This document shows positions 45,530 to 49,401 of a stretch of DNA of 49,401 bases, piece after piece. The translations under genes were made by a program, and so were the position numbers. The stretch is taken from IMG/VR virus record IMGVR_UViG_3300024346_000107, positions 1 through 49,401 of that record. One strand, given 5' to 3'. Origin of the DNA: a virus. The notes under the pieces are model-generated. The model was given only the letters and a program-made list of their open reading frames with translations, had not been told where the DNA came from and made no database searches. Position 1 is the stretch's first letter; each line of letters starts with the position of its first letter.

Positions 45530-46515
45530 TAGAACCCATCCTCTTCAACATCTTTTCTGTTGAGTGTTCTTGTTTCTTGGAATGATAGTGACATTTCAAT
45601 TTCCTGAAAGTTACCATCAGAATGCATTGCCATAGCAGTATTATTATAAGTAACACTCACATCTCTTAGGTAACATGGTTTGATTCGAGTTGCAATCTCT
45701 TCACCCTTATATTCCAGACTGAGTTGAAATTTGTTCGGAAACTTATAACCAACAGAAACCTGACTACCCGCAACGTCTATATTGATATTTTCGGGATATA
45801 GTTCTGTTCGGAACAATTTTATAATTTCTTTAATTTCTTCTGATTCTTTCTGTGATGTCGCAATGAACTTAAACGCAAATGCAAACTCACGAAGTGCAAC
45901 AGACTTAAATAATACACGAGTGTTTGGATTGGTAGTTACTTGACCCGCACTTCTGAACGCACCAGCGATTTCGTCTGGGAACTTACCCATCAGTTTTACG
46001 GTGGCAAGTTTAGCAACATCTTTGTTTGCAGCACCACTGAATGCTGAACCTATAGTCTTACCTGTTTGTTCCAACAATGCATTGACAGCACCACTACCAG
46101 ATTTAAGACCCGATTCTGCGGCCGCACCCATACCTCCCAAGTCCATATTATCATAAGCAACATTATCACGAAACTGCAAACCAGCAGGAAGGTACAAGGA
46201 TACTTGTCTTCCTAATGAAGTGAGAGGTTTCCTCTTAGTTACAGGCATTTTGTCGGGGACTAAACCCTTTACCTCATTGACCGCTTTTTGTTGGTCTTCA
46301 GGATTATCCCCAACGACCTTTGCTACCGCAACTTTTGCGAGTGCCTTGGTCATTTCTCCGGCTGCACCCAGAACATTACCGAGATCGGTCTCGTCTTCTT
46401 TCATTACATTGAAAACGATTCTGCCCCCATAGTCATCTGGGTTATTCAGTGGATACTCAAGGTTTTTTCGGTTTAGTCCTGATAATATACCTTGAAGTTC
46501 GGTCGGTTCTGCCAT
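45529..46515 (-). CDS. 48: baseplate tail-tube cap protein gp48
   Basis: A 328-aa tube-fold protein that starts the tail tube on the baseplate. NPNTRVLFKSVALREFAFAF followed by KESEEIKEIIKLFRTELYP matches the core shared by T4 gp48 and gp54. VSLYLPAGLQFRDN lies upstream in the same fold. The order 48-53-hub-5 favours gp48 over gp54. It is the first gene of the leftward late cluster and has a dedicated late promoter in the 55-nt divergent gap. Confidence 0.85.
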   Translation of the reverse strand: MAEPTELQGILSGLNRKNLEYPLNNPDDYGGRIVFNVMKEDETDLGNVLGAAGEMTKALAKVAVAKVVGDNPEDQQKAVNEVKGLVPDKMPVTKRKPLTSLGRQVSLYLPAGLQFRDNVAYDNMDLGGMGAAAESGLKSGSGAVNALLEQTGKTIGSAFSGAANKDVAKLATVKLMGKFPDEIAGAFRSAGQVTTNPNTRVLFKSVALREFAFAFKFIATSQKESEEIKEIIKLFRTELYPENINIDVAGSQVSVGYKFPNKFQLSLEYKGEEIATRIKPCYLRDVSVTYNNTAMAMHSDGNFQEIEMSLSFQETRTLNRKDVEEDGF

Positions 46516-46526
46516 TTTAGTTTCTC

Positions 46527-46534
46527 TATAAATA
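46527..46534 (+). promoter_or_regulatory. T4-type late promoter for the rightward gp4 cluster
   Basis: Exact TATAAATA on the plus strand, 36 nt before the gp4 ATG, predicting a leader of about 31 nt. It lies downstream of the opposing promoter's start, so the two transcription units overlap at their 5' ends. Confidence 0.75.
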
Positions 46535-46554
46535 GGTTAGAAATCATTTATCTT

Positions 46555-46562
46555 TATTTATA
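46555..46562 (-). promoter_or_regulatory. T4-type late promoter for gp48 cluster, extended 14-nt form
   Basis: Exact TATAAATA on the minus strand within AAACCTTATAAATA (46568 to 46555), predicting a leader of about 34 nt to gp48. On the plus strand the same bases contain AAGG (46562-46565), the ribosome binding site of gp4. Confidence 0.75.
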
Positions 46563-46570
46563 AGGTTTTT

Positions 46571-47071
46571 ATGGCATATTCGGGTAGATACAGAGTAAAA
46601 AATCCAAAGAAGTATGAAGGAGACCACACAAAGGTCACCTATCGTTCTTTGTGGGAGAAACACGCCTTCAAATGGTGTGACGATAACTCCAAAGTGATAA
46701 AGTGGTCTTCCGAAGAAGTCATTATACCATATCTATATGAGGTTGACAAGCGTTATCACAGATATTTTATGGACTTAAAGATGGTTATGGAAGATGGTAA
46801 GACTTGGTTGGTCGAGATAAAACCAGATAAAGAAACCAAAATACCGACTGGTAATAAGAATACCAAGAGATACCTCAACGAGAGTTTCACCTATGTCAAG
46901 AATATTAACAAGTGGGAAGCTGCGAACGAGTATGCAAAAGATCGTGGATGGAAGTTTGTCATCTGGACTGAGAAGAACGAACCATTGAAGACTCTTATTC
47001 CTAAATCAACAAAACCTCTGAAACCTTTGAAGAAAACTTTGAAACCTTTTCGTAAGAAACGTAAAAAATAG
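46571..47071 (+). CDS. 4: head completion protein gp4, TnsA-like nuclease fold
   Basis: A 166-aa homologue of T4 gp4 (150 aa; also called 50/65), needed to finish packaged heads. YRSLWEKHAFKWCDDN, FMDLKMV and WLVEIKP form a PD-(D/E)xK-type set with Glu29, Asp68, Glu82 and Lys84, as in TnsA N-terminal domains. The last 20 residues are a Lys-rich KPLK-repeat tail. It opens the rightward late cluster. AAGG, 5 nt before the ATG, supports this start. Confidence 0.92.
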   Translation: MAYSGRYRVKNPKKYEGDHTKVTYRSLWEKHAFKWCDDNSKVIKWSSEEVIIPYLYEVDKRYHRYFMDLKMVMEDGKTWLVEIKPDKETKIPTGNKNTKRYLNESFTYVKNINKWEAANEYAKDRGWKFVIWTEKNEPLKTLIPKSTKPLKPLKKTLKPFRKKRKK

Positions 47072-48416: not shown

Positions 48417-49118
48417 ATGGCATTACCTAAGTTAAATGGGAATCCGAAGTATGAAATGACGATTCCATCCATGCAGAAGACAGTGAGGTTTAGACCGTAT
48501 CTGGTAAAAGAAGAGAAGGTTCTTCTCATGGCATTTGAGAGTCAAGATACGACTCAAGCAATGAAAGCGATAATTGACACCATTGAAGTTTGTGTTGATG
48601 ACAAGATTAACACCAAGGAATTAACCACATTCGATGTGGAATATATGTTTACCAAACTCCGTAGTAAGTCAGTAGGTGAACGTAGTAGATTGAACATGAA
48701 GTGTACCAATTGTGATACACCTAATGAGTTTGAAGTCAATCTAGAAGAACTAGAAGTAACAATGGATAAACCTTCCGAAAAGATTGAGTTACAGGAAGAT
48801 GTCCATGTGGAGATGGGTTATCCATCCGCAGACGTTTTGATGAACATGAAAGAAGGTTTATCACAAACAGAACAAATAATCGAACTGATTGTCTATAGTG
48901 TCAAGAACATTATGACCGAAGATGAAAACATCAACGCAAACGATGTACCTAAAAAGGAATTGCGTGATTTTATAGATTCTATGACAGGCGACCAGTTTAA
49001 GAAAGTTAGTGAGTTTGTTGCAACGATTCCAACTCTGACAAAAGAGATTGAGTTTGATTGTAAAGAGTGTGGAACGCACAACGAACATACACTATCGGGT
49101 TTTACTGATTTTTTTTAG
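48417..49118 (+). CDS. 26: baseplate hub assembly protein, gp26-like (0-frame product)
   Basis: A 233-aa product from ATG at 48417, chosen over a TTG 12 nt earlier because GGAG at 48407-48410 is well spaced for it. LPKLNGNPKYEMTIPSMQKTV followed by FRPYLVKEEKVLLMAFES is the T4 baseplate gp26-like signature. Two CxxC pairs (Cys96/99 and Cys215/218) form a probable zinc ribbon. The last codons before TAG are GAT TTT TTT inside an eight-T run, from which a -1 frame continues. In T4, gp26 helps assemble the central hub. Confidence 0.85.
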   Translation: MALPKLNGNPKYEMTIPSMQKTVRFRPYLVKEEKVLLMAFESQDTTQAMKAIIDTIEVCVDDKINTKELTTFDVEYMFTKLRSKSVGERSRLNMKCTNCDTPNEFEVNLEELEVTMDKPSEKIELQEDVHVEMGYPSADVLMNMKEGLSQTEQIIELIVYSVKNIMTEDENINANDVPKKELRDFIDSMTGDQFKKVSEFVATIPTLTKEIEFDCKECGTHNEHTLSGFTDFF

Positions 49119-49303
49119 TAAACCTTTCCCATGATAGTCTGATAAATTTTTATCAGACTAACTTTTCGTTAATGCAACATCATCATTATAGTTTAACAGA
49201 ACTTGAAATGATGATGCCGTGGGAAAGGGAGGTATACGTTACTCTTCTCACCGAATATATTAAAGAAGAGAACGATAGGATAAAACAACAACAGGGTAGA
49301 TAG
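48417..49303 (+). CDS. predicted -1 frameshift fusion product of the gp26-like gene
   Basis: A ribosome slipping back one base on T-TTT-TTT (49109-49115) reads TTA GTA AAC and continues for 62 codons to TAG at 49301-49303. This gives a protein of about 295 aa. The extension is clearly coding-like. It contains HDSLINFYQTNFSLMQ, YSLTELEMMMPWEREVYV and LLTEYIKEENDRIKQQQ, a helical tail typical of tail-assembly-chaperone T domains. The in-frame ATG at 49172 could alternatively start a 43-aa protein, but no good ribosome binding site precedes it. The short-plus-long pair just before a possible tape measure gene mirrors lambda G/GT. Confidence 0.7.
49109..49115 (+). other. -1 slippery heptamer T TTT TTT
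   Basis: The 0-frame codons are GA(T TTT TTT) TAG. The eight-T run 49109-49116 allows both P- and A-site tRNAs to re-pair perfectly after a -1 shift, and the stop codon directly next would add a pause. This is the strongest candidate recoding site in the window. Confidence 0.7.
49135..49160 (+). other. 12-bp perfect hairpin downstream of the slippery site
   Basis: TAGTCTGATAAA (49135-49146) pairs perfectly with TTTATCAGACTA (49149-49160). In RNA the inner A-U pairs probably open to leave a loop of about 4-6 nt. The stem begins 19 nt after the slippery heptamer and lies within the -1 frame. It may stimulate frameshifting or regulate the next gene. It lacks the T run of a terminator. Confidence 0.6.
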
Positions 49304-49401
49304 ATGTCCGAAGAAATGCACCCCTCTGCTGGTAGTGGTAGAGACCAAGAATCTCAGAAGAATCTTCTGAGAAAGTTGATCAACACCATGAAAGAAGACA
49401 A
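49304..49401 (+). CDS. N-terminal fragment, possible tape measure protein (gp29-like)
   Basis: ATG at 49304 follows immediately after the TAG of the -1 frame (TAGATG). The frame is open for 32 codons to the window end (MSEEMHPSAGSGRDQESQ, then LLRKLINTMKED). The hydrophilic start with a following helix and the place behind a frameshifted chaperone-like pair suggest a tape measure gene. Too little sequence is present to confirm this. Confidence 0.45.
   Translation, partial: MSEEMHPSAGSGRDQESQKNLLRKLINTMKED

Follow-up and report, generated by a model that had tools for sequence, protein, structure and literature searches.

The stretch of DNA analysed here (the window; 49,401 nt) comes from a marine T4-like virus and carries a gp26-like gene on its plus strand, followed by a short open segment in the -1 frame and the start of a further gene (Table 1). 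The gp26-like protein matched PF12322 with 193.6 bits, over the curated cut-off of 24.5, and PHROG_150 at E 2.8e-59, which agrees with the identity proposed in the initial annotation. Its ATG lies behind GGAG and is a plausible start; a mechanical list of open reading frames opens at TTG 48405 instead. As described there, the gene ends in GAT TTT TTT TAG (49107-49118), and the eight T residues at 49109-49116 are the only run of at least eight T or A in the 49.4 kb window. After a slip of one base backwards the -1 frame is open from 49115 to 49300, giving the 62 codons claimed for it, and its TAG is followed directly by the ATG of the next gene, again in accordance with the earlier description. 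The -1 peptide matched PHROG_634 (cyanophage "gp51"; baseplate hub assembly catalyst) at E 1.4e-27 and positions 235-281 of PHROG_150 at E 2.1e-6.

Table 1. Features at the gp26-like locus of the window
Feature	Position	Strand	Evidence
gp26-like gene, candidate short form of a tail assembly chaperone, 233 aa	48417..49118	+	PF12322, PHROG_150, predicted fold match
Weak Shine-Dalgarno-like element (CGGG), corresponding to that of the family	49096..49099	+	-3.7 in the identical L003 vs family mean -6.3
TGA closing the -1 frame just upstream of the T run	49106..49108	+	
Slippery heptamer T TTT TTT	49109..49115	+	kept in 242/244 junctions
gp26 stop TAG, immediately 3' of the heptamer	49116..49118	+	
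-1 frame tail domain, 62 codons and stop (TAG 49301-49303), putative C-terminal part of the long form	49115..49303	+	PHROG_634, -1 coding signal
Stem-loop 19 nt after the heptamer, possible stimulator	49135..49160	+	perfect 12-nt arms
First ATG of the -1 frame, rejected as the only start	49172..49174	+	-1 segment protein-like in start-less relatives
5' part of the following gene (candidate tape measure), truncated where the window ends	49304..49401	+	

Whether the gene at 49304 is a tape measure had been proposed as a check. This identity finds some support in phiM7, where the large gene downstream of the pair weakly matched a tape-measure PHROG (E 1.8e-5), but not in the full-length relative of the gene itself (L012 3888-5813, 641 aa), which matched no PHROG or Pfam family. 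Upstream, a strand switch at 46515-46571 separates baseplate genes of the minus strand from plus-strand genes for gp4-like, gp2-like, tail tube and gp26-like proteins.

If the -1 frame tail were a separate small protein, its translation would have to begin at an ATG close to the gp26 stop or beyond it, through reinitiation or translational coupling. In the window, however, the first 19 codons of the -1 frame contain no ATG, GTG or TTG; the first of these is the ATG at 49172, the 20th new codon, preceded by CTG 49139 and ATA 49142. No Shine-Dalgarno-like motif was found by eye in the 25 bases before 49172, bearing out the earlier remark that this ATG lacks a good ribosome binding site.

An alignment of gp26 3' ends in relatives had also been proposed as a check. 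By tblastn, gp26 relatives were detected in 1058 phage records and tail relatives (E <=0.01) in 554. All 16 annotated phages without a T4-type gp51 (C48C1, Mosig, P-SSM2, Melnitz-3, S-WAM1, KVP40, phiM7, phiM9, pf16, YB07, OLIVR5, BUCT-ZZ01, MED4-213, ACG-2014d, S-PM2 and syn9), of which 13 were chosen via a tail match and YB07, OLIVR5 and syn9 via a gp26 match, combine a slippery site close to the gp26 stop (T TTT TTC, T TTT TTT or T TTT TTG) with a tail open in the -1 frame; both are also present in Aeromonas phage 65.2 and PhiW-14. IMG/VR was scanned with gp26 queries in addition. From 295 sequences we removed two that duplicate the window, ten from two-gene phages, four whose gp26 runs off the contig end and 35 with a repeated junction, leaving 244 distinct junctions. 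T TTT TTN lies in frame beside the gp26 stop in 242 of these, with two of the IMG/VR scans represented by the best 80 of about 600 matches each, as TTTTTTC (204), TTTTTTT (32), TTTTTTA (5) or TTTTTTG (1). A -1 tail was likewise recognised in 242, the two sets differing by L045 (site present, contig ending inside the tail) and Pseudomonas phage Cygsa01 (tail present, no site). L216 was counted as lacking both because its gp26 reading frame is broken; its true end reads AGT TTT TTT TAA and is followed by a -1 tail. Cygsa01, whose gp26 ends in ATT TTC ACC TAATG, is thus the sole true exception. Here (L197 1572-2482) the tail has persisted without the site, and the gp26 stop shares bases with an ATG (TAATG); reinitiation may have taken over from frameshifting in this phage. 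Its tree neighbour PhiW-14 retains T TTT TTC. In L081 the gp26 frame, besides the -1 frame, also matched the tail profile at a loose limit.

The 242 junctions were reduced to 103 clusters less than 80% identical, to which Cygsa01 does not belong. The first TTT lies 2-5 codons ahead of the gp26 stop in 95 clusters and 10 codons ahead in eight, and the rest of gp26 in these clusters holds 17 other in-frame T TTT TT among 22,718 codons. All 170 non-T4 junctions of the first collection have a T as the last base of the codon preceding the site and TTT as the first Phe codon, where codon use would give 108 and 129, respectively; Phe-Phe elsewhere in gp26 is spelled T TTT TTY in 5 of 160 cases. The log10 probability of keeping NNT-TTT throughout the 103 clusters is -38.6 from codon use, a value that assumes independence although the clusters are not independent. 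Long T runs are error-prone, and the run might be misread, gp26 and the tail forming one plain frame, or the tail might be dead in a decayed gene. As the independent contigs L003-L017 agree and the arrangement recurs in 242 of 244 junctions, chance or assembly error is ruled out, and sequencing error or decay can practically be dismissed.

The question whether the -1 segment is translated from the slip onwards was addressed with 52 of the 170 junctions which have no ATG, GTG or TTG in the first 18 codons of the -1 frame. For pairs of 60-75, 75-90 and 90-99.9% identity, pN/pS in the -1 frame was 0.395, 0.279 and 0.077, without a single stop, while the other frames contain many stops and reach pN/pS values of 1.16 to 4.24. 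Upstream of the site the relation is reversed, with 0.362 in the own frame of gp26 and 2.31 in the -1 frame. These values were pooled pairwise from pairs that are not independent, and the contrast is large. By its substitution pattern, the start-less segment is under protein-level constraint in the -1 frame and in no other, and the ATG at 49172 is therefore rejected as the only start. A separate tail protein has several points in its favour: in 73 of 166 relatives the -1 frame reaches its first ATG at the fourth new codon, where reinitiation may yield an additional separate tail; KVP40, phiM7, phiM9, YB07 and PhiW-14 have an ATG across the gp26 stop, making a separate product possible in these phages, and Cygsa01 has one as well; and 15 of the 18 single-gene records examined that contain the site annotate the tail as a separate small gene. 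Such a protein does not explain the protein-like start-less segments, the retention of the slippery site whatever the start codons, or the fused tail of T4-type gp51 (see below), and we regard it as very improbable.

Candidate stimulators were found on both sides of the heptamer. The residues ahead of the site are mostly Leu-Glu-Gly, and Glu is encoded by GAG in 123 of 169 cases compared to 28% elsewhere. Pairing of this stretch with the anti-Shine-Dalgarno sequence has a family mean of -6.3 kcal/mol vs -1.35 in other gp26 stretches. The same peptides with codons drawn from usage gave -4.9, and the observed pairing was lower in 181 of 242 junctions; part of the signal is due to the peptide itself. 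Where the best 6-nt pairing was below -4, it ended 7-9 nt upstream of the heptamer in 162 of 176 cases, and pairing was weaker with T7 (-4.6, n=32) than with T6C (-6.6, n=204). This element recalls that of E. coli dnaX. Downstream, 54 nt are more stable than synonymous recodings of the -1 frame (mean z -1.56 in 103 clusters), compared to mean z values of -0.41 for 206 gp26 stretches and -0.42 for 103 later stretches of the -1 reading frame (Mann-Whitney p 5e-11 against the gp26 stretches). The window itself has a perfect inverted repeat here, absent from the initial annotation, with a stem-loop of -13.1 kcal/mol (z -3.8; z -3.2 vs synonymous recoding), whose distance to the heptamer exceeds the usual spacing. 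The nearest relatives (L005, L011 and L014) have weaker stems (z -1.0 to -1.3), and no stable structure was found downstream of the heptamer in syn9 and phage 65.2 (z 0.4 and 1.3). In 57 of the 103 clusters the longest stem has at least 7 pairs; it starts 0-52 nt after the heptamer, and at 4-9 nt in 24 of these clusters. No stem-loop with a constant position was found, and only an enrichment of downstream structure is claimed. The family is thus enriched in an upstream Shine-Dalgarno-like stretch and in downstream structure, and the window combines a stem-loop, which possibly helps the slip, with a weak upstream stretch.

The same fusion could be formed if the RNA polymerase slipped on T8 and added an extra T to some messages. 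The resulting protein would be identical, and the T8 of the window, the only such run, is suited to this. In 204 of the 242 junctions, however, the run is interrupted (T6C), and the enriched elements on both sides fit ribosomes better, so that slippage during transcription appears very unlikely.

T4 carries both gp26 and gp51, and the relation of the two proteins to the frameshift gene was analysed. T4 gp51 aligns with positions 13-280 of the 282 in PHROG_150 and T4 gp26 with 14-235 only; therefore gp51 corresponds to gp26 plus the tail. T4 gp26 and gp51 matched each other in BLASTP at E 1e-5 for a single comparison, and profiles of ten gp26 and ten gp51 proteins aligned at E 2.8e-23. A profile of the in-silico fusion aligned along gp51 15-254 of 256 (E 5.3e-25), with its gp26 part reaching position 200 and the tail starting at 202; the tail alone matched gp51 202-254 at E 3.7e-11, and no match of the tail profile to T4-type gp26 was obtained (E 0.44). 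In the ten phages with separate gp26 and gp51, gp51 has the tail in frame and none of the gp26 genes has the slippery site; four of the ten keep Phe-Phe, spelled TTC TTT or TTC TTC. These gp26 genes serve as a natural control for the question whether protein constraint explains the site. A single PF12322 gene was found in all eight single-gene genomes searched (C48C1, P-SSM2, KVP40, phiM7, S-PM2, 65.2, PhiW-14 and Cygsa01) and two in all five T4-type genomes (T4, UFV01, G2248, SemperBestia and Aes012). The window, a fragment, differs from phages with a T4-type gp51, which has its own gp26-like domain besides the tail, in that only the -1 frame tail follows. A separate gp51 was also not found on the L012 and L016 contigs, which are fragments searched without a positive control.

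KVP40 and 65.2 are listed in the Straboviridae together with T4, yet have one gene with a frameshift; this suggests that frameshifting is older than the two-gene arrangement. An unrooted tree of gp26 and gp51 resolves three groups: the frameshift genes (100/97), gp51 (100/98) and, with nine of its ten members, T4-type gp26 (96/90). The tenth T4-type gp26, from SemperBestia, falls beside gp51 on a long branch; the order of duplication events is not decided by this tree. In Cronobacter phage SemperBestia, gp51, gp26 and gp25 follow the tail-tube initiator as a tandem on the same strand (gp51 and gp26, L196 2501-3794), whereas the order in T4 is diverging. This tandem is a possible intermediate or relic of the duplication. 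Records of T4 annotate gp26' (L021 2834-3121), the product of an internal in-frame start in gene 26, which might be a second way to two forms and bear on chaperone ratios. The record of T4 strain GT7 (KJ477686; L021 1695-2444) has no feature in the stretch shown where the 249-aa reading frame of gene 51 is intact.

The predicted structure of gp26 (54 rows, mean pLDDT 92.4, pTM 0.85), for which the short form alone was modelled, was compared with known folds. Residues 1-95 matched 3fgx, 3klu and 2ob9 (HK97 gp13) with Z 8.1, 7.4 and 7.1, middling values for which the tool warns that a Z under 8 may reflect a common arrangement. Against this stands that the three best matches belong to one family, followed by a drop to Z 4.4 for 5ir0 (unknown function) and then to <=3.0. 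With Foldseek alone, 2ob9 ranked sixth (E 0.61, prob 0.77). Among predicted viral proteins, 71 matched the gp26 model at E <=0.001, and many of the named best matches are baseplate hub proteins. By sequence, no solved relative of T4 gp51 was detected, matches of the gp26 profile were at chance level, and NCBIfam gave nothing over the cut-off. According to passages of PMC9603447, 3fgx, 3klu and 2ob9 are all called tail assembly chaperones; the predicted fold of gp26 thus matches that of a tail assembly chaperone, and the comparison with lambda G/GT made in the initial annotation fits.

Therefore, from the conserved site, the protein-like evolution of the start-less -1 segment, the in-frame fusion in gp51, the loss of the site where gp51 is separate and the chaperone-like predicted fold, the locus very probably encodes a short and a long tail assembly chaperone made by -1 frameshifting, in keeping with the fusion originally suggested. 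Most ribosomes would stop at TAG 49116 and yield the short gp26-like chaperone. A fraction would slip back one base on the heptamer, where the stem-loop may assist, and so bypass the stop and append the 62 residues of the tail domain. If lambda gpG/gpGT is a guide, the tape measure protein would be coated by a large number of short chaperones and a small number of long ones, the latter bringing in tail-tube subunits through the tail domain; neither form would remain in the completed tail. The ribosomal nature of the slip, its frequency and the role in tail assembly are what we infer from these comparisons. A wider reading, to which we assign about even chances, is that a three-part signal (a Shine-Dalgarno-like element usually 7-9 nt upstream and weaker with U7, a U6Y/U7 heptamer, and downstream structure) in a single gp26 gene is the standard route to the chaperone pair in the T4 group outside the T4-type two-gene phages, and that T4-type gp26 and gp51 arose from such a gene by duplication and in-frame fusion, the second gene replacing the recoding.

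The initial annotation was not aware of such a frameshift as a standard feature of gp26. None of the 18 single-gene records examined that contain the site has a joined gene and three annotate nothing for the tail; the locus is thus mis-annotated. In C48C1, Mosig, Melnitz-3 and syn9 (L018, L019, L022 and L035) the annotated tail gene begins only at an internal start, and the tail is without annotation in S-WAM1, ACG-2014d and 65.2 (L023, L033 and L195). As a finding it is less new than first thought, because passages of PMC10885494 and PMC12846349 cite Vladimirov et al. 2022 (Virology 566:9-15) on tail assembly chaperones of T4-like phages and on a polyT signal in them, the first of these papers describing T4-like phages with a short gene and a longer fusion gene. 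The same work is cited in PMC12859696 and PMC9603447 and stands in the reference list of PMC12671138. No description of a frameshift in cyanophage or marine gp26 was found in the open-access PMC literature, of which partial texts were covered, and Vladimirov et al. 2022 may contain much of it. This kind of frameshift is known, and the T4-like case probably is as well; going by these citations, the chaperone identity of the T4 genes has been published, and what we add is the breadth, the -1 coding test and the evidence for stimulators.

Among known systems, the cyanophage gp26/gp51 pairs (P-SSM2, S-PM2, syn9 and S-WAM1) share the slippery site at the gp26 end and the -1 tail with the window, but have T6C instead of T8, and records list their tail as a gene of its own or, for S-WAM1, omit it. 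In T4, gp26 corresponds to the short form and gp51 to the short form plus tail, but both are separate genes and gp26 has no slippery site. The slippery sequence of lambda is G GGA AAG, unlike the poly-T site in gp26. As described for lambda gpG/gpGT (PMC5009743), a short chaperone is accompanied by a -1 frameshifted long form. Similarly, in Pseudomonas phage Adele and the Andersonviridae, another phage group, the tail assembly chaperone gene is described with a -1 frameshift close to its end, at a conserved GTTTTT that contains polyT (PMC12846349).
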